The notes beneath the pieces were generated by a model. The model was not told the DNA's origin. It saw nothing but the letters and a program-made list of their open reading frames with translations, and searched no databases. Both the position numbers and the translations under genes were made by a program. This document shows positions 4,368 to 59,929 of a DNA stretch of 64,000 nt, in pieces. The stretch spans positions 1 through 64,000 of the forward strand of contig UCKS01000005.1 in the NCBI GenBank assembly GCA_900473045.1, written 5' to 3'. Numbering within the stretch: the first letter of the stretch is position 1; each line of letters starts with the position of its first letter. This DNA comes from Hyphomicrobiales bacterium. GTDB taxonomy: Bacteria > Pseudomonadota > Alphaproteobacteria > Rhizobiales > Rhizobiaceae.

Positions 4368-4401
4368 GCGGCAGCTCACCGACGAGCATTGCCACAAACA
4401 A

Positions 4402-4437
4402 AAACCCAGCCGGCGGAGGTGCCCGGCTGGGTTTCTT
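4402..4437 (+). terminator. Intrinsic terminator of pncB
   Basis: A 12-bp stem AAACCCAGCCGG / CCGGCTGGGTTT (4402-4413 with 4423-4434) encloses a 9-nt loop and ends in a short T-rich run. It lies 35 bases after the pncB stop codon. Confidence 0.85.
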
Positions 4438-4478
4438 GCGCATTCTGTTGAGGGATGCGCCGGGAGAACTTTGTTTCG

Positions 4479-4742
4479 TTACGCGCTCATGCGTAAGCAG
4501 TCGGAGCGCGAAGCGAGCGGGTGGACCATCGACAGCAGGCGGCGCTTGGGAGCCGCCAGCAGGTTGGCCGTATGATTTTTGGCGCTCACCGTTCCCGGCT
4601 GCATCTGGCGAAGCGCACTGGCAGCGGAATAGAGAAGCGTTTTCATTTCATTGGTCGTGACGCCATCCGCACGCATAACGGCACGGATCATCGGGTCTGT
4701 CAGGACCTCATGGATGGTCAGATCGCTGTTTGCCTGGTGCAT
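4479..4742 (-). CDS. Small conserved-looking protein of unknown function
   Basis: An 87-residue protein with an acidic, leucine-rich N-terminal half (around TIHEVLTDPMIRAVMRADGV) and a basic C-terminal tail. The half resembles a type of short rhizobial protein with a DPxIRxVMxADGV core, which I recognise only as a pattern. The start ATG has an AAGGA site about 8 bases upstream. It is divergent from the TetR gene, so both share a 127-base promoter region containing TetR-like palindromes and could be co-regulated. There is no signal peptide or membrane segment. Function unknown. Confidence 0.6.
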   Translation of the reverse strand: MHQANSDLTIHEVLTDPMIRAVMRADGVTTNEMKTLLYSAASALRQMQPGTVSAKNHTANLLAAPKRRLLSMVHPLASRSDCLRMSA

Positions 4743-4824
4743 TGGGGTATTCCTTGGGGTTTATCGTCTTTTCCGGCGGTGTATCCCGTCCGGTGTCTTA
4801 ACCTTGACATCGTTGCTGTGTGGT

Positions 4825-4863
4825 GTTACCAGTAAGTAACATTTGAATAGTTACCGACCGGTC
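4825..4863. promoter_or_regulatory. Palindromic operator candidates upstream of tetR
   Basis: Two palindromes lie between the small minus-strand gene and the TetR start: GTTAC at 4825-4829 with GTAAC at 4836-4840, and a perfect GACCGGTC at 4856-4863 within TTACCGACCGGTCAC. The ACCGACCGGT core resembles sites commonly found before autoregulated TetR genes. The second palindrome is only 6 bases from the chosen ATG at 4870, so binding would block transcription or initiation. Confidence 0.55.
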
Positions 4864-4869
4864 ACACCT

Positions 4870-5559
4870 ATGTCAAGAACTCTCGTCAATAAAAATGCAA
4901 AATCCGTATCGTCTGCGAAACCGGCAGATGTAAGGCTGGAAAATGGTGACGGTGTGCAGGCGCGCCAGGCGCCGCGAGATCGTATTGTTTCAACGGCTTG
5001 TGAGCTTTTTCGGCAACATGGGATTCGCGGTATCGGCGTCGATGCGATCGCCGAGGCCGCCGAGACCAACAAGATGACGCTCTACCGTCATTTCGGCTCG
5101 AAAGACGACCTTATCTGCGAGGCATTGCGGTTCACCTCGGAAAAAACCGCAGCTTTTTGGGACCAGCTCGAAGCCTCCCATCCAAACGACCCGATGGCCC
5201 AGCTTCACAGTTGGGTAAAAGCCCGGGCGCAGTGTCTGGCCGACAATAAATATGGCTGCGATCTTGCCAATGCGGCCGTTGAACTCAAGGAGCAGGGACA
5301 TCCGGCCCACGCGGTGATCGAAAACTTCAAGCTTGCCCAGCAACGGCGTCTTGAAAAGCTCTGTCGCGATGCCGGCGTCAGCGAACCGGAACTGCTCTCC
5401 GATACCCTGTCGATGCTGATGGAAGGTGCGCAGGTCAGCAAGCTTGCGAGCGGTAGCGAAGGCCCGTCCATGCGCTTCATGCGCGCCTGCGAGGCCGCCA
5501 TCGCCTCCTTCCGCCAGCCGGCCAAAGCTATGGCCGAAGCAGTCGGCTCCGAAGTTTGA
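4870..5559 (+). CDS. TetR/AcrR-family transcriptional regulator
   Basis: This protein of about 229 residues has a poorly conserved basic N-terminal tail and then a TetR DNA-binding domain (RDRIVSTACELFRQHGIRGIGVDAIAEAAE, recognition helix NKMTLYRHFGSKDDLI, about residues 35-85). A helical ligand domain with a C-terminal helix of small residues follows. An alternative TTG start lies at 4843; ATG 4870 is preferred. It precedes the amidohydrolase, metallopeptidase and ATP-grasp genes on the same strand, 140 bases upstream of the first. It probably controls them and itself through the flanking palindromes. The ligand is unknown and could be the product or substrate of the cassette. Confidence 0.88.
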   Translation: MSRTLVNKNAKSVSSAKPADVRLENGDGVQARQAPRDRIVSTACELFRQHGIRGIGVDAIAEAAETNKMTLYRHFGSKDDLICEALRFTSEKTAAFWDQLEASHPNDPMAQLHSWVKARAQCLADNKYGCDLANAAVELKEQGHPAHAVIENFKLAQQRRLEKLCRDAGVSEPELLSDTLSMLMEGAQVSKLASGSEGPSMRFMRACEAAIASFRQPAKAMAEAVGSEV

Positions 5560-5604
5560 GGTTTCGCCTGCACGATCCTGCTCGCATAGGCTGATTGGCG
5601 TTCG

Positions 5605-5621
5605 CATCGAAGCTTTCGATG
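5605..5621. promoter_or_regulatory. 17-bp palindrome before the amidohydrolase gene
   Basis: CATCGAA (5605-5611) and TTCGATG (5615-5621) form a perfect inverted repeat around GCT. It sits in the 140-base gap between the TetR gene and the first enzyme gene, a position suited to an operator for the enzyme genes. It overlaps a weak alternative ATG (5619), a further reason to prefer the start at 5700. Confidence 0.45.
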
Positions 5622-5699
5622 GAACAAACTTGCGTCGCGTCCATTTACTCGTTGACTGAAAAGCGCAGCCCCGAGCTGCCCGTCAACGAGAAGGACCGT

Positions 5700-6521
5700 A
5701 TGCCCCCCCTCCAGGAATTCATGGCCGATCCGGACCCTGCGGACTGGTGGTCTGCCCATCGCGGCGCCTCGCCGATTATCGGCACGGCCATTCACAATGG
5801 TCGTCATATCCGCAGTGACTTGCAGGACTTCCTCGGTCTCAGCGAGGATCAGCGGCTGCGGGAAGAGGACCCGTTCACGGAGTTCTTCATTCGCGATCTA
5901 TCCAACCGCATCGTCTTCCACCGCTCCCGCTTCGAGATCGATATCAACCGGGCCCGCGAGGGGGCGATCTATCTCACCCCGGACCAGGCCTGGGGATTGA
6001 AGGTCTGGGCGCAGAAATTGCCGGATGATGCCATCGCGTCCTCGCTTGGCGTGCACGATGCCTATTATGCCATGCTGGAAACCTATCTCCGGGGTATCGA
6101 ACACCAATACGGCGCCTTCGTCCTTCTCGACATGCACAGCTACAATCACCGTCGTGACGGTGCCGACGGTGCCGAAACGCCGTTTGAAAAAGCGCCGCAG
6201 ATCAATATCGGCACATCCTCGATGGATCGCGAGCGCTGGGCGCCGGTGCTGGATGTCTTCATCGAACAGTTGCGCAGCTTTGAATTTCGCGGCCAGCGCA
6301 TGGATGTGCGCGAAAACGTCGCCTTTCAGGGCAAGGGCGAGCAGACGCGTTTCGTCCACGAACGGTTCCCGGAAACCGGCTGCGCCATCGCCATCGAGTT
6401 CAAGAAGTTCTTCATGGACGAGTGGACCGGCGAGCCGGACATCGAAGCGCTGAAAGCCATGCGGGAAATGATCCGCCTGTCGCTGCCTGTTCTGCACGAG
6501 ACTTTGCGGGCACGGTCATGA
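5700..6521 (+). CDS. N-formylglutamate amidohydrolase-family enzyme
   Basis: This protein of about 273 residues belongs to the N-formylglutamate amidohydrolase family, zinc hydrolases related to M14 carboxypeptidases that cleave N-formyl-L-glutamate to formate and glutamate. Visible motifs are HNGRH (H32), DPFTEFF, SRFEIDINR, LDMHSYNHR (D144, H146) and IEFKKFFMDE, consistent with an intact metal site. Start 5700 has AAGGA upstream; in-frame TTG 5595 and ATG 5619 would add a tail without family features. The stop overlaps the next start as ATGA. No histidine-utilisation genes are nearby. The partners are a QEGLA peptidase and a GshB-like ligase, so hydrolysis of a glutamyl or acyl-glutamate-like conjugate is likelier than histidine breakdown. 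Confidence 0.85.
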   Translation: MPPLQEFMADPDPADWWSAHRGASPIIGTAIHNGRHIRSDLQDFLGLSEDQRLREEDPFTEFFIRDLSNRIVFHRSRFEIDINRAREGAIYLTPDQAWGLKVWAQKLPDDAIASSLGVHDAYYAMLETYLRGIEHQYGAFVLLDMHSYNHRRDGADGAETPFEKAPQINIGTSSMDRERWAPVLDVFIEQLRSFEFRGQRMDVRENVAFQGKGEQTRFVHERFPETGCAIAIEFKKFFMDEWTGEPDIEALKAMREMIRLSLPVLHETLRARS

Positions 6522-8416
6522 CCAGCCCGCGCCGCAAGCATGGCGATACCAACGCCAGCCATCCACAATGGCTGGACGACATCCTTGACTGCATCCGCAC
6601 GGACAAATCGGTGCGCAAGGATTTCGACAATGGCGGCCGCCTTCACATCGATCGGCCATTGCCCTTCCTGTCCGTGCATATCGGCAGGGGCAGGGACGAT
6701 CTTGCCGCAAGAGACATCGCCGCTGCCAATGCGTCCTATCTGATCGTCAATGACATCCAGGAAGCCCTGCCGGTCATCGAGGCGGTCGGGGCGGTTCTGA
6801 GCGAGCGTTTTGGCGCGTTCCTGCTGCTGGACATTGACGAACTCGATCACGACACGCTGATCACCGACGATGCGCCCTACCTTCCACCCTTCGAAATCAG
6901 GATCGCGTCGACGGATGACGTCGCCGCGCAAAAAGCCGCTGCCGCACTGGCCGAAGGCACCGATATCCGCCAGGTAAAGTTCCGAACGCCACATATCAAT
7001 TGGTTCGGCATCAAAACGGATACCCAGGCAGCACGGTTGATCGAGCAAACCGGCTTTCCCCTGGTCGCCGTCCGGTTCGCGCCGATCTACCGGCAGCCGG
7101 AATCCGGAAACACTTACCCCGATCTGCGCGAGCGCCTTGTTGCCAATATCTTCGACGCCGGACTGAAGGCCTTTGCGGCGTTTGTCGGCGCAACCCAGAG
7201 TCTGAAACTGACGACGCACCGGGCGCTGGGCCGCAAGGCCTTCGTTGATGCCGTCAGCCGCGCCGACCGTAGCATCGATGATGTGGCTTCCAGCTTCGAT
7301 TTCCTGCTGGCCGTCACGCCGATCAATACCGATGCTGCCTGGCAGGCGTTCAAGGCGGGCAAGTTCAAGCAGGAACCGCAATTCCTCTACCGGCCGCTGT
7401 CGGTGCAGGTCGAGAGCGAAAAAAGGAAACTCTTTTCCGTCGCTTTCGATCGCTTCGAAGACCCGGTCCTTTACCATCTCTACCGTGAAAAGCAGCAGGA
7501 ACTGGACCTGCAGCTGTCGCTGATCTCGGCGCGCGAAACCAGCCGGTTCGTCGAATATGGCCGTGCCCTCTATGGCCCGGTGGAACCGTCGCTCTATCGG
7601 GTGGCCACTGAGATCCTGGCGAAAACGGCAGTGCTCGCCGATGATGGCGATGATATCGAGAGCGATCCGGCGACAGTCGATTGCGATGAGGTCGAAGCTG
7701 CGGCCCGTGCGATGATTGCCGATTATCAACGGCAATATCCGGGTTTTGCGGCCGAAGTCGAACTGCGCGACGACCTGCCGTCCGGCATGCTGGTTTCGGG
7801 AGAACGCCTGCTGATCTCGCGCCAGACCCTGATGCCGAGGGGGCGGGTGCACGCGCTTTTGAGCCACGAGATTGGCGTGCATCTTCTCACCTATTTCAAC
7901 GGCTCGGCGCAGGGTCTGCGGCTGTTCCGCTCCGGCCTTGCCGGTTATGAGGGCATGCAGGAGGGGCTCGCCGTGTTCTCCGAATACATGGCCGGCGGCA
8001 TGACCGTCGGGCGCCTGCGGCTGATCGCGGCCCGGGTCGTCGGCTGCGCGGCGATGCTGGACGGGCGGCCGTTTACCGAGACCTACAGCCTGCTTGTCGG
8101 CGAACACGGGTTCGGGCCGGTCGCTGCCTTCCATCTGGCCATGCGGCTCTATCGCGGCGGCGGGCTCGCCAAGGACGCGATTTATCTGCGTGGCCTGCTG
8201 GAGTTGCTGAGCCATCTGAAATCCGGCGGTGCGCTTGATCCGTTCTGGATGGGCAAGATTTCCGCCTCGCATTTCCGGGTGATGCAGGAATTGAGCCTGC
8301 GCGGCCTGCTCAAGGCGCCGGTCATCCGCCCTGCCTTTCTTACCCATCCGCAAGCACAAGCCCGCCTCGACAAGGCGCGGCAAGGACTGAACCCCCTGGA
8401 TATGATCATCAGTTAG
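6518..8416 (+). CDS. QEGLA-motif zinc metallopeptidase (DUF1704/MATCAP-like)
   Basis: A 632-residue protein whose C-terminal half carries HEIGVH (H450-H454, an HExxxH zinc site) and MQEGLAVFSEY about 28 residues later, where E482 is the expected third ligand. This is the signature of the family annotated as flavohemoglobin expression-modulating QEGLA protein. Its eukaryotic relatives include the tubulin tyrosine carboxypeptidase MATCAP. The N-terminal part (1-300) is a domain I cannot assign. The start overlaps the amidohydrolase stop (ATGA), and the ATP-grasp gene begins 8 bases after the stop. Likely role: removing a C-terminal residue or processing a peptide made or modified by the neighbouring ligase. 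That role is inference; the protease motif is seen. Confidence 0.85.
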   Translation: MTSPRRKHGDTNASHPQWLDDILDCIRTDKSVRKDFDNGGRLHIDRPLPFLSVHIGRGRDDLAARDIAAANASYLIVNDIQEALPVIEAVGAVLSERFGAFLLLDIDELDHDTLITDDAPYLPPFEIRIASTDDVAAQKAAAALAEGTDIRQVKFRTPHINWFGIKTDTQAARLIEQTGFPLVAVRFAPIYRQPESGNTYPDLRERLVANIFDAGLKAFAAFVGATQSLKLTTHRALGRKAFVDAVSRADRSIDDVASSFDFLLAVTPINTDAAWQAFKAGKFKQEPQFLYRPLSVQVESEKRKLFSVAFDRFEDPVLYHLYREKQQELDLQLSLISARETSRFVEYGRALYGPVEPSLYRVATEILAKTAVLADDGDDIESDPATVDCDEVEAAARAMIADYQRQYPGFAAEVELRDDLPSGMLVSGERLLISRQTLMPRGRVHALLSHEIGVHLLTYFNGSAQGLRLFRSGLAGYEGMQEGLAVFSEYMAGGMTVGRLRLIAARVVGCAAMLDGRPFTETYSLLVGEHGFGPVAAFHLAMRLYRGGGLAKDAIYLRGLLELLSHLKSGGALDPFWMGKISASHFRVMQELSLRGLLKAPVIRPAFLTHPQAQARLDKARQGLNPLDMIIS

Positions 8417-8424
8417 GAGCCACC

Positions 8425-9471
8425 ATGCGCGTCGCATTCTTCATCAATTCGATCGAGAGCGAGGAACCTCATTTCACAACCACCGCGCTGGCCATGGCAG
8501 CACTCGCCCGTGGCCATGACGTCTGCTACATCGCGCCGGGCGATTTCGTGCTACGGCCGGATGATAGCCTGATGGTGCGGGCGACCACGGTCGCCGCCGG
8601 AAAGTACAAGAACGCCCAGGCGTTCCACGAAGGCTTCCAAGGCAAGGATGCCAAGGTCCAGACGATCGACGTCCGTGAGGTCGATATCATCTTCCTGCGC
8701 AACGATCCGTCGCTTGATTCCGACGACCGGCCGTGGGCCGCCCATATCGGCGCCATGTTCGGGCGGCTGGCCAGCGAGCGCGGATCGATCGTCGTCAACG
8801 ACCCTGCCGGTTTGGCACTCGCCCAGAACAAGCTCTATTTCCAGGGGTTCCCCGAAGCGGTACGCCCGGAAACATTGATTTCAAAGAGCATTGAGGAAAT
8901 CCGCGCCTTCATCGCCGATCACCGCAAGGGCGTCATCCTGAAGCCGCTGCAGGGCTCCGGCGGCAAGAACGTCTTCAAGATCGCCACGCCCGATGACGCC
9001 AATCTCAATCAGATTTTCGAGGCCGTCAGCGGTGAGGGCTATCTGATCGCGCAGGGCTATCTGCCGGAAGCCAAGGCCGGTGATATCCGCTTCTTCATGA
9101 TGAATGGCAAGCCGCTGGAACGGGACGGCGCCTATGCCGCATTCCGCCGCGTTCCGGCCAAGGGAGAGGTCCGCTCCAACATGCACGCAGCCGGAACGGC
9201 CGAGGCCGTCAAGATCACCGACGACATCCTCGCTGTCGCGGAGATGGTCCGCCCCAAGCTGATCGAAGACGGCATGTTCCTTGTAGGCCTCGACATCGTC
9301 GGCGACAAGATCCTTGAGATCAACGTGTTCACGCCGGGCGGTCTTCCGGAAATCGCCTCCATGCACAAGGTGGATTTCTCCGAAGACATTATCGAGGCTT
9401 TGGAAAAGAAGACCGCGATCCGCAAGGCCTATGGCGGCGCGATGTCGAACCGGGCGCTGGCAACGCTTTAG
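8425..9471 (+). CDS. GshB-like ATP-grasp ligase
   Basis: A 348-residue ATP-grasp protein resembling bacterial glutathione synthetase. Features include N-terminal MRVAFFINSIESE, VNDPAGLALAQNKLY, the ATP-binding LKPLQGSGGKNVFKI, DIRFFMMNGKPL, and the magnesium-binding GLDIVGDKILEINVFTPGG near the C-terminus. ATP-grasp enzymes of this group join a carboxylate to an amine through an acyl phosphate. Glutathione synthetase itself is normally encoded elsewhere with gshA. Its position 8 bases after the QEGLA peptidase and in operon with an amidohydrolase points to a specialised ligase that builds or attaches a small peptide or amino acid. Substrates cannot be read from the sequence. Confidence 0.85.
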   Translation: MRVAFFINSIESEEPHFTTTALAMAALARGHDVCYIAPGDFVLRPDDSLMVRATTVAAGKYKNAQAFHEGFQGKDAKVQTIDVREVDIIFLRNDPSLDSDDRPWAAHIGAMFGRLASERGSIVVNDPAGLALAQNKLYFQGFPEAVRPETLISKSIEEIRAFIADHRKGVILKPLQGSGGKNVFKIATPDDANLNQIFEAVSGEGYLIAQGYLPEAKAGDIRFFMMNGKPLERDGAYAAFRRVPAKGEVRSNMHAAGTAEAVKITDDILAVAEMVRPKLIEDGMFLVGLDIVGDKILEINVFTPGGLPEIASMHKVDFSEDIIEALEKKTAIRKAYGGAMSNRALATL

Positions 9472-9527
9472 GCTGTTTTCGCGGGCCATCTGTGCTATCG
9501 CGGGCGCCTCAACGATTGGAAGCGCCC

Positions 9528-10208
9528 GTGATACCCTGGACCCTGATTGACACCGCGATAATGCCCGACGGCGGCGGCGAACTGCGCCTCAAGCAGCGCG
9601 GCGGTGAATTCTCCATCATGCTCGGTACGATCGAATTGATGAACAGCCGGTTGAGCGGTTCGGAAGAGGCGCTGGCCCGCCTGTCCTACGAGCGGGTTCG
9701 CAGCCACCCACGGCCACATATGCTGATCGGCGGGCTCGGAATGGGCTTTACGCTGAGAGCGGCACTCAAAGAGCTTCCGACGGACGCGCGGATAACGGTC
9801 GGCGAACTGGTGCCTGCGGTGGTCGCCTGGGCGCGTGGTCCCATGGCCGAGGTGTTTGCTGGTTGTCTTGATGATGCAAGGGTCTCGATCCGCGAAGGTG
9901 ATGTCGGCCGTCTCATCCAGTCGGGAACCGGCGAATATGACGCGATCCTGTTGGATGTCGACAATGGCCCGGAAGGGCTGACCCGCCGGGCAAACGATGC
10001 TCTATACAGCGTCTCCGGTCTTCGCGCGGCGCGTACGGCAATGAAGCCGAACGGCGTTCTTTCCGTCTGGTCGTCGGCGCCCGATGCCGGCTTCACCCGC
10101 CGGCTGAAGGAAGCCGGCTTTGCTGTTGAGGAGCTCTCGGTTCGCGCCAGCACCAAGGGTAAAGGTGCCCGCCACGTGATCTGGATGGCGATGAAGACAG
10201 GGCGTTAG
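9528..10208 (+). CDS. Spermidine-synthase-like protein
   Basis: This protein of about 226 residues has a Rossmann methyltransferase-like fold of the spermidine synthase superfamily. Seen are LIGGLGMGFTLRAAL (nucleotide-binding glycine loop), VGELVPAVVAWARG with the acidic residue, and YDAILLDVDNGPEGL, where the aspartate replaces the usual catalytic region. It lacks the N-terminal beta domain of true spermidine synthases, so it is probably not a polyamine synthase. GTG 9528 is chosen with GGAAG upstream; another GTG lies at 9492. It follows the ATP-grasp gene by 56 bases and might be a fourth cistron, but it is common in rhizobia and may be independent. Confidence 0.7.
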   Translation: MIPWTLIDTAIMPDGGGELRLKQRGGEFSIMLGTIELMNSRLSGSEEALARLSYERVRSHPRPHMLIGGLGMGFTLRAALKELPTDARITVGELVPAVVAWARGPMAEVFAGCLDDARVSIREGDVGRLIQSGTGEYDAILLDVDNGPEGLTRRANDALYSVSGLRAARTAMKPNGVLSVWSSAPDAGFTRRLKEAGFAVEELSVRASTKGKGARHVIWMAMKTGR

Positions 10209-10222
10209 CCATTGTCTTGCCG

Positions 10223-10603
10223 TTAGAGGCCTTCGCGTTCCAACAGGATGCGGACCTCGTCAAAGCGACGTTTATTTTCTTCGTTCTTTTCGTCGGCCGA
10301 ATAGCACGTGCTGGCCAGGCAGAAACGCTTCAGCCCGAAGGGCGCCTTGGCGTTGTCGAACTGGCATTCGATCGTATCGACCATATTCTTCTTCTCCACG
10401 CCATCGCGGGTGGAATAGGTCATGCGCGCGCCGGGCGGCTTGAGCTCGGGAAACGACTGGACGACGCCGGTGTGCAGGGTGTCGGTCATCAGCAGATTTT
10501 TGGCCACCTTCACGCAGAGGTCTTCAACCTTCATCGACTGGGCGGCGGCTGGGGAGGCCACGGGCAAGGCCAACAGCACCAAGGCAAACACGATTTTTCG
10601 CAT
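10223..10603 (-). CDS. Small secreted protein of unknown function
   Basis: A 126-residue protein with a clear Sec signal peptide (MRKIVFALVLLALPVASPAAAQS, cleavage probably after AAA or AQ near residue 22). The mature domain contains four cysteines (DLCVKV, IECQFD, FCLASTCYS), suggesting disulfide bonds in the periplasm. AGGAG lies about 7 bases before the start. It converges with the spermidine-synthase-like gene 14 bases away. No family is recognised. A longer in-frame extension to 11203 is rejected because the signal peptide and ribosome-binding site fix the start. Confidence 0.75.
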   Translation of the reverse strand: MRKIVFALVLLALPVASPAAAQSMKVEDLCVKVAKNLLMTDTLHTGVVQSFPELKPPGARMTYSTRDGVEKKNMVDTIECQFDNAKAPFGLKRFCLASTCYSADEKNEENKRRFDEVRILLEREGL

Positions 10604-10933
10604 AACACACTCCTGAAGCGCCGACCCCCAAAAGCCGCTGCGCGGATCATAACGGCGCTGGTTGCATTTGGTTCCACAGAAGGTGTGTAAAACGCCGTCC
10701 TGGGTTGTGAATTCGTTCGCCTGCACGTCCATTGAGCGTAGCATTGCGATGCGAATCGTTTTTTGACCGCGTCCATTTCGCAATCTTGGGAGCGTGCAGG
10801 TCCGTTGTAAAACTCCTGGTTCAGTCGTCGCAAAGATTCCGGGCGATATAATTTCGCGAAGGGATTTTCCGGCGGAACCAAGCGCTCTCTTCGCAGTTTC
10901 TACTTGGCCACTTTGACAAGGGGAGAGAAGCAG
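10604..10933. other. Intergenic region between secreted protein and DUF2934 gene
   Basis: This 330-base gap separates two divergent genes. It must hold both promoters. A GGGGAGAG ribosome-binding site for the right-hand gene ends it. I see no convincing palindrome or reading frame. Confidence 0.4.
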
Positions 10934-12948: not shown

Positions 12949-15036
<2,088 letters not shown>

Positions 15037-15282
15037 TGCGGAAAATCCCCTCTTTGCAAAATCTGCCCAATGTAATTGTGCAACGCACTATTTGTTCCAT
15101 TCGAAGGCGCATGAATGGAAATATTTCAGGGATTTTCAAGGCTCGGTTCCGCTCTTTGTGGCCACCGCTAAAAAATGGCGAAAATTTGTCAAAGCCCGAT
15201 TGATGTACCCGTGAAACGCGCTATCTAGCACGTGCTGACGATTGACTTCGCAGCTGGGGCTCCTCTTTCATTTCGGGTTTTC

Positions 15283-58669: not shown

Positions 58670-59929
58670 CTATTTGCTCGCGAGGAACTTCTGTTGAGCC
58701 TTGGTCATGTAGTCAGCCCATTGCTTGGCCATTTCTTCCGGCGTGATATCGCCAAGCATGGCTTCCTGGCTGGTCTTGATCGCCATGGAATCCTTGAAGA
58801 AGGCGAATTCTTCGAGGTAAGTCGGCATGACGGTCGGAACGGCATCCTTGTCGGCCAGTTCCTCGAACCAGCCCTTGAACTGATCCGTGGCAAAGAAAGG
58901 ATCCTTCTCGGCAGACTTGAGGGCCGGCAGGGCGCCGATCTTCTTGTTCCACTCGATATTGCCTTCCGGGCCTTCGAGCGTGGCAATCAGCTTCCAGGAC
59001 AGATCCTTGTTGGCGCTTGCCGACATCATCGACCAGCCGGCAAAGCCGATGGTCGGGAATGTCTTGCCGGATGGACCCTTCGGCATGGTGGTGACGCCGT
59101 AATCGGCGGCATCCATGCGTTCGGCGATGGCGATCAGCGCATCCGGGTCCTGATCGAGCATCGCGCAGGTGCCGGTATAGAAGCCGGCGACGATCTCGTT
59201 GAAGCCCCAGTTGACGCTGTCCTTCGGCGCATAGCCCTTCTTGTAGAGGTCGATCAGCCAAGTGAAGCCCTTGATCCAGCCTTCCTCGGAGAATTTCGAG
59301 GTGCCGTCTGCGTTGAAATAGGTGTTGTCGCCTGCCATCGTGGCGCCCATCATCATCCAGCCGTTCAGGCCGCCTGGACCGCCGCGCATGCAATAGGCAT
59401 ATTTGCCCGGCAGCTTCTTGATCTTTTCGGCCGCTGCGACGAAATCGTCCATCGTCTTCGGCGGGCCGTCGACGCCGGCTTCAGCGAAGATCTTCTTGTT
59501 GTAGAACATGGCGCGCAGATAGAAGCCGTAAGGCAGCATATAGGCCGTGTCCTTGACGTCGCGGCCAAGTTCAAGGGCGCGATCCGTCAGTTCCGGCGTC
59601 TGGTCCCAGGTCTTCAGGTAAGGCTCGAGGCTTTCGAGCATGCCATTGTTGGCATAGAGCGACAGCCAGGTATCCGGCATTTCCATCACGTCGGGGATTT
59701 CGCCGGCAGACACCATGGTGGCAAACTTCTGGAACGCCTCGCCCCAGGGCAGCGAGATGATCTCGACCGTCGTGCCGGGGTTGGCGGCTTCGAATTTGGC
59801 GACGATCGACTTCAGCGTTTCGGTGCGTTCCGGGCTGGTAATGACTTCCACCAGCTTGAGCTTGGTATCGGCAAAGGCAGTGCCTGCCATCAGCGTTGCG
59901 ACCAAGGTCGCGGCAATCAGTTTCCTCAT
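58670..59929 (-). CDS. Sugar-type ABC substrate-binding protein
   Basis: A 419-residue periplasmic binding protein of the extracellular solute-binding family 1. Signal peptide MRKLIAATLVATLMAGTAFA; SPERTETLKSIVAKFEAANPGTTVEII starts the mature lobe. AAAGGGAAACG lies before the start. The ligand is unknown; the family binds oligosaccharides, glycerol phosphates and other polyols. Confidence 0.92.
   Translation of the reverse strand: MRKLIAATLVATLMAGTAFADTKLKLVEVITSPERTETLKSIVAKFEAANPGTTVEIISLPWGEAFQKFATMVSAGEIPDVMEMPDTWLSLYANNGMLESLEPYLKTWDQTPELTDRALELGRDVKDTAYMLPYGFYLRAMFYNKKIFAEAGVDGPPKTMDDFVAAAEKIKKLPGKYAYCMRGGPGGLNGWMMMGATMAGDNTYFNADGTSKFSEEGWIKGFTWLIDLYKKGYAPKDSVNWGFNEIVAGFYTGTCAMLDQDPDALIAIAERMDAADYGVTTMPKGPSGKTFPTIGFAGWSMMSASANKDLSWKLIATLEGPEGNIEWNKKIGALPALKSAEKDPFFATDQFKGWFEELADKDAVPTVMPTYLEEFAFFKDSMAIKTSQEAMLGDITPEEMAKQWADYMTKAQQKFLASK

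Follow-up and report, generated by a model that had tools for sequence, protein, structure and literature searches.

A conserved cassette of an FGase-fold amidohydrolase, a MATCAP-family peptidase and a GshB-like ligase behind an EcfG-type promoter motif

The window analyzed here is a stretch of 64,000 nucleotides from a Hyphomicrobiales bacterium of the family Rhizobiaceae (GenBank assembly GCA_900473045.1, contig UCKS01000005.1, positions 1 to 64,000 of the forward strand), and it contains three closely packed genes on the + strand that bring together two hydrolases and one ligase. The first (5700..6521, ATG at 5700, 273 amino acids) encodes an amidohydrolase with the fold of N-formylglutamate amidohydrolases (FGase; PF05013), the second (6518..8416, ATG at 6518, 632 amino acids) a MATCAP/QEGLA metallopeptidase, and the third (8425..9471, 348 amino acids) a GshB-like ATP-grasp amidoligase of the subfamily PRK12458/NF009110. 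The peptidase gene overlaps the FGase stop by four bases (ATGA) and the ligase gene starts 8 bases past the peptidase stop, which matches the overlap and gap described in an initial annotation of this DNA made from the letters alone. This arrangement raises the question of whether the three genes form a unit and, if so, what a ligase and two hydrolases encoded side by side might make and unmake.

Conservation of the three genes as a unit

The initial annotation had read the arrangement as an operon and had proposed a survey of gene neighborhoods for conserved co-occurrence. Our scan of named genomes gave 174 relatives of the long peptidase, from which the best 80 loci were kept; these are mostly from Rhizobiales and, having been chosen by peptidase similarity, are not independent of one another. 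The FGase, peptidase and ligase genes stand in the same order and on the same strand in 80/80 of these loci. When the window is added (81 loci, with start codons picked by script), the first gap is a 4-base overlap in 78/81 and the second measures -1 to 18 bases in 79/81, a spacing that bears out the operon-like reading. Clustering of open reading frames (ORFs) of at least 120 amino acids within up to 8 kb of flank recovered the trio in 80/80 loci and the next genuine cluster in only 26/80, the other big clusters (80, 61 and 36 loci) being shadow ORFs that overlap at the site of the cassette. Peptidases of the 12 closest named loci, Rhizobium and Pararhizobium among them, share 78-90% of their residues with that of the window.

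Two genome samples gave the same picture. Within the window's family, 151 genomes were sampled: PF08014, the Pfam family of the peptidase, was present in 14 and the ligase subfamily was above its cut-off in 14; these are the identical 14 genomes, and the two genes adjoin in 14/14. A wider sample, 299 genomes from across the phylum, contained the ligase subfamily in 8, PF08014 in 29 and both in 7, which means that PF08014 occurs in 7/8 genomes with the ligase subfamily versus 22/291 others (Fisher p 3e-7). Nine of the ten ligase genes in this sample adjoin a MATCAP match, and the tenth begins 48 bases from a contig end. We conclude that the trio is a real conserved unit, beyond chance.

Further afield, we opened six distant loci with a long MATCAP gene (L038-L043) and 14 other MATCAP loci (L044-L057). 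The ligase is present in five of the six and the FGase in four of the six, one of these as a fusion, while blastp found a ligase or FGase in 0/14 of the other fetched stretches. Beyond the trio itself the flanks are lineage-specific; in S. meliloti, for example, they hold glycosyltransferase, copper-regulator and sugar ABC genes. Directly 3' of the window's cassette lies a spermidine-synthase-like or methyltransferase-like gene (9492-10208; PF01564 just below the cut-off), which we rejected as a fourth member since it flanks the cassette in only the 12 nearest of the 80 loci. A role as a defense system was likewise rejected, with 0/3 cassette proteins matching PADLOC models at E 0.01.

Properties of the three enzymes

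The peptidase scored 305.5 bits with PF08014 (cut-off 27) and 362.6 with TIGR02421 (cut-off 338.65), and its AlphaFold2 (AF2) model has a pLDDT of 88.2. Its MATCAP zinc peptidase domain (7346..8383, +; PF08014 6.3e-91) matches the MATCAP structure 7z5g both by profile (E 2.5e-8) and by fold (Foldseek E 4.5e-7). Within this domain, the H, E and H of the predicted zinc-binding motif HEIGVH (residues 450-455; 7865..7882, +) are invariant in 25/25 relatives, as is the QEGLA motif (residues 481-485; 7958..7972, +), in which E482 is the predicted third zinc ligand. The intact HExxxH plus QEGLA site and the kinship with MATCAP that the initial annotation described are thus both upheld, and we consider the protein a MATCAP-family zinc peptidase and a predicted metallocarboxypeptidase. 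The passages of PMC10499314 available to us describe MATCAP/TMCP enzymes as shortening and deglutamylating tubulin tails. Those enzymes (7z5g, 7z6s) have the zinc peptidase domain and the HExxxH plus E site in common with the cassette peptidase, yet they are only 17-18% identical to it in Foldseek alignments, and the 7z5g chains, at ~330 residues, do not cover its N-terminal part. The cassette peptidase, in contrast, is a long form with an additional N-terminal domain, and its gene shares an operon-like cluster with those of the FGase and the ligase; because its host is bacterial, it would have no tubulin target.

This N-terminal region (6518..7222, +, bounds approximate) appears to be a degenerate FGase-like domain, a feature that is new here. 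Comparison of residues 84-208 with the cassette FGases by hhalign gave a probability of 88.6 and an E value of 2.7e-6 for the single comparison, whereas an unrelated control gave a probability of 0.2. At the position of FGase H146, no histidine is found in 25/25 relatives, and the domain is therefore predicted to be inactive. The initial annotation, correct on the zinc site and the family, had missed this domain, as it had the FGase-MATCAP fusion and the stress-promoter motif considered below.

The free FGase, in turn, scored 79.7 bits with PF05013 (longer form; cut-off 28.9). An alternative in-frame start at TTG 5595 is possible for its gene, and an AGAAGGA run lies immediately 5' of ATG 5700. 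The AF2 model (pLDDT 92.2) matches 2q7s (E 1.2e-11, TM 0.72) and 2odf (E 8e-9) in Foldseek, and the protein keeps the residues H32, R77, D81, N83, R84, D144, H146, S147 and E233 that it has in common with two of the four other FGases encoded elsewhere in the window's 6.78-Mb genome, so the label of NFGase-type hydrolase fits by score, fold and residues. Fold and conserved residues are also what links it to the N-formylglutamate amidohydrolases of known structure and to HutG, from which it differs in falling far under the HutG equivalog cut-off (TIGR02017, 21.6 versus 278.75 bits) and in that no hut genes were noticed beside it. Given this low score and the four other FGases in the genome, a role in histidine degradation is unlikely, and the initial annotation was probably right to set the cassette apart from histidine utilization.

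The ligase scored 480.9 bits with NF009110 (cut-off 408), 181.2-183.2 with PF02955 and 53.3 with PF02951. It fell below the cut-offs of the GshB equivalogs (TIGR01380, 212 versus 299.05; NF003573, 227.1 versus 272) and of the RimK alpha-L-glutamate ligase (TIGR00768, 65.1 versus 143.4). Its closest solved relative is GshB (1gsa), matched over the full length at 6.3e-57, compared with 1.7e-16 for the best RimK chain. We compared 86 cassette ligases with 24 canonical-type GshB proteins, taking the ATP/Mg residues and the acceptor-loop residues (S286, T288, E292) to have the roles that we presume for them in GshB. The cassette ligases keep GshB K125, K160, R210, R225, R233, D273, E281 and N283, and R86, R225, R233, E281 and N283 are kept in 86/86, so the GshB-like ATP-grasp core was rightly called intact. 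Sixteen positions, however, are conserved within each group and differ between the two, among them the acceptor-loop changes T285F and T288G; T288 is replaced by G in 86/86, while S286 is T in 61/86 and S in 25/86. Since the ATP/Mg core is kept and the acceptor loop is changed, the ligase probably forms amide bonds with an acceptor other than that of GshB. This combination of a kept core and an altered acceptor loop is also new here.

Upstream control

The initial annotation had placed the cassette behind a TetR regulator. A TetR-family gene (PF00440; 4870..5559, +) does lie upstream on the same strand, but it is a neighbor rather than a conserved part of the cassette, being linked in just the 12 nearest of the 80 loci, and we rejected it as a dedicated regulator. 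Between it and the cassette sits an EcfG/RpoE2-type promoter motif (GGAAC-N18-TT; 5621..5645, +) that begins 79 bases ahead of ATG 5700. The window's copy can be read as GGAAC-N16-CATT, which departs at a single base from GGAAC-N16-CGTT, the R. etli EcfG consensus as given in the passages of PMC3892343 available to us.

The motif was reached by following k-mers enriched upstream of the FGase gene to GGAAC and from there to a spaced form, sought up to 300 bases upstream as a loose form (GGAAC-N18/19-TT), which we take to be a relaxed RpoE2/EcfG consensus, and a tight form (GGAAC-N16-18-GTT). The loose motif lies upstream of the FGase gene in 67/81 loci, the window included. For comparison, the loose and tight forms were present in 41/592 and 22/592 of the regions 5' of flanking ORFs (80 named loci), in 4.5% and 2.2% of windows drawn at random from the same loci with the cassette regions left in, and in 2.2% and 1.1% of shuffles. 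When the loci were grouped by upstream similarity, 20/29 clusters had the loose motif in half or more of the loci that they contain. The window's genome also has two NepR matches, and a sigma-70 promoter scan of 4400-10300 returned 2 matches, both on the - strand, where 2.0 are expected in shuffles. The presence of an EcfG/RpoE2-type motif upstream of the cassette is a new observation, and the cassette is probably stress-induced through a promoter of this type.

Some further observations concern regulation in and beyond the window. A perfect GGAAC-N16-CGTT occurs twice in the window, both times on the - strand: at 10651-10675, ending 47 bases before an ATG (10603, -) that opens a small gene for a protein with, by reading, a secretion-like N-terminus, and at 58838-58862. 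A loose EcfG-type motif (15074-15098, -) also precedes, by ~60 bases, a gene (12949-15036, -) that by reading resembles glgX for glycogen debranching. LysR-type genes of similar sequence, Pfam-checked in L043 only, stand divergent to or near the cassette in L038, L041, L042 and L043 and could be a local regulator there. As another osmotic-type link, a QEGLA-motif gene is tabled with the value 27.51 for a low-salinity transcriptome of Photobacterium damselae in the part of PMC10308900 available to us.

What the cassette might make and unmake

The reading that we tentatively favor, with somewhat less than even confidence, is that the trio is an autonomous module that runs a stress-induced cycle of making and unmaking a small peptide of the N-acyl or gamma-glutamyl type. 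The EcfG general-stress promoter would induce the three genes, and the ligase would activate as an acyl phosphate the carboxylate of a dipeptide of the gamma-glutamyl or N-acyl-glutamyl type and join to it an amine that is not just glutathione's glycine. The MATCAP domain, as a zinc carboxypeptidase, would then take off the C-terminal-side residue, and the FGase would strip the N-acyl group from the acidic amino acid that remains. The degenerate FGase domain on the peptidase may hold the substrate or dock the active FGase, so that the two hydrolases would act as a pair. Two of the distant loci bear on this pairing. In L039 an FGase is fused directly to MATCAP, with the motifs of both kept save that FGase H220 is Asn, and a ligase gene adjoins; this FGase-MATCAP fusion, seen in one distant relative, is new here. 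In L040 the place of the FGase is taken by a gene of the AstE/AspA family, a family of N-acyl-Glu/Asp hydrolases, and this gene runs into the start of the long MATCAP gene. Together with the degenerate N-terminal domain, these loci suggest that an acyl-amino-acid hydrolase and MATCAP share one job.

Alternatively, the substrate may be a protein, with the ligase attaching an amino acid at the C-terminus or on a side chain of a protein or peptide, MATCAP removing it and the FGase handling an acyl cap. Eukaryotic tubulin ligases and MATCAP act in this way, MATCAP/TMCP enzymes trimming tubulin tails in the account given by those same passages of PMC10499314, and the cassette ligase also matches the RimK domain PF08443 of protein glutamate ligases. 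The genes directly 3' of the L043 cassette (L043 3768-6777) encode a PF05618 protease, a PF14400/PF14402 membrane protein and a PF14397 ATP-grasp protein, which amount to a second ligase-protease set. Yet among solved structures the ligase comes closest to the small-molecule enzyme GshB, with RimK behind it by the E values given above, and no further family is conserved with the cassette beyond 26/80 loci, although a protein target need not be linked. We regard such a protein cycle as unlikely. A more specific form, which we consider quite unlikely, would be a write/erase cycle resembling the tubulin code that the general stress sigma factor switches on and that acts on a cellular target; here the degenerate FGase-like part of the peptidase would guide its carboxypeptidase domain, and the separate FGase would remove an acyl cap.

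A catabolic role, in which the hydrolases degrade an acylated peptide that comes from outside or from stored osmolyte and the ligase re-uses a product, would suit a cassette with two hydrolases to one ligase, and in S. meliloti the sugar ABC transporter genes lie 3' of the cassette. Across the 80 loci, however, no transporter is conserved with it (the largest other cluster again being that of 26/80), and the upstream signal is that of a stress sigma factor instead of a conserved regulator dedicated to one substrate; we consider salvage of this kind very unlikely. It is also possible that the ligase is a second glutathione synthetase, accompanied by two hydrolases for glutathione-like peptides or conjugates under stress. 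NF009110 bears the name glutathione synthetase, R86, R225, R233, E281 and N283 are universal among the cassette ligases, and E292 is kept in 22/86. Against this stand the scores under the GshB equivalog cut-offs and the T288G change. A role as the sole glutathione synthetase of the window's genome was ruled out by a second GshB-type gene there, which outscores the ligase with PF02955 (238.5 versus 183.2 bits), and a further GshB-type match is present in 14/14 cassette genomes of the family. To the separation from glutathione synthesis drawn in the initial annotation there is a partial counter-example in four distant genomes (G006, G037, G093 and G113; completeness 99, 99, 99 and 90%), in which cassette ligases are the only strong PF02955 matches and a GCS2 (gshA-type) gene is present. 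Since 107/299 genomes, including G014 of the same genus as G006, have GCS2 and lack a strong GshB-type match (NF009110 E <1e-40) as well as a cassette ligase, these four genomes neither tie the ligase to glutathione nor exclude glutathione there. We judge a glutathione-like role to be very improbable.

Several observations weigh against the favored cycle on a small acylated peptide. The window's own ligase is among those that keep E292. L040 has neither FGase nor ligase, L041 has two other genes between FGase and peptidase, and L042 has a ligase and a long MATCAP gene with no FGase in 13.5 kb. One of the 14 cassette genomes of the family, G367, has a second ligase copy (L194 7124-8164; 61% identical to the window's) that stands alone: its neighbors are an ABC transporter and a NUDIX gene, and the surrounding 15.5 kb hold neither a peptidase nor an FGase. 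Neighboring ligase or protease genes in L043 and L039 would also fit protein or polyamine substrates; L039 is flanked by two glutamine-synthetase-like genes, an FAD oxidoreductase and an aminotransferase, an arrangement that we take to resemble gamma-glutamyl-polyamine pathways. As to induction, the tight promoter motif is found in 27/81 loci and the window has the loose form only, 14/81 loci have no motif (3 Neorhizobium, 1 Mesorhizobium and 10 Rhizobium species or Rhizobiales isolates), and the spaced pattern was picked after the enriched k-mers had been viewed and was counted over kin loci, its excess over the controls still being large. Finally, a fold search of the whole peptidase model against the PDB gave no FGase chain among the 50 matches listed. 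The six chains that pass E 0.001 are five MATCAP chains and the putative lipoprotein 3o0y, and the weak matches are carboxypeptidases and nucleoside phosphorylases. Chains 4oko, 4b6z and 3l2n are common to this search and that with the FGase model, where they rank behind FGase structures, so that the structural support for the N-terminal domain is indirect.

The amidoligase-peptidase systems of Iyer et al. (2009; Mol Biosyst 5:1636) reportedly follow the same logic of a peptide ligase encoded beside peptidases, and that work may already list this neighborhood. Our literature searches on QEGLA/DUF1704/COG3931 and on ATP-grasp with FGase brought up no study of what the bacterial cassette does, and its genes are not named in the passages of PMC6180224, PMC3892343, PMC4431377 and PMC2922099 available to us. 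Several database records label ligases of the cassette type "glutathione synthase," a label that could be corrected if the substrate were found. The MATCAP-family members that have been studied edit tubulin tails, and the cassette gives the bacterial members a context in which they can be tested, with a dedicated ligase, a partner hydrolase, a likely inducer of the EcfG stress type and tractable rhizobial hosts. Finding its substrate would identify either a metabolite of the stress response or a mark on proteins.

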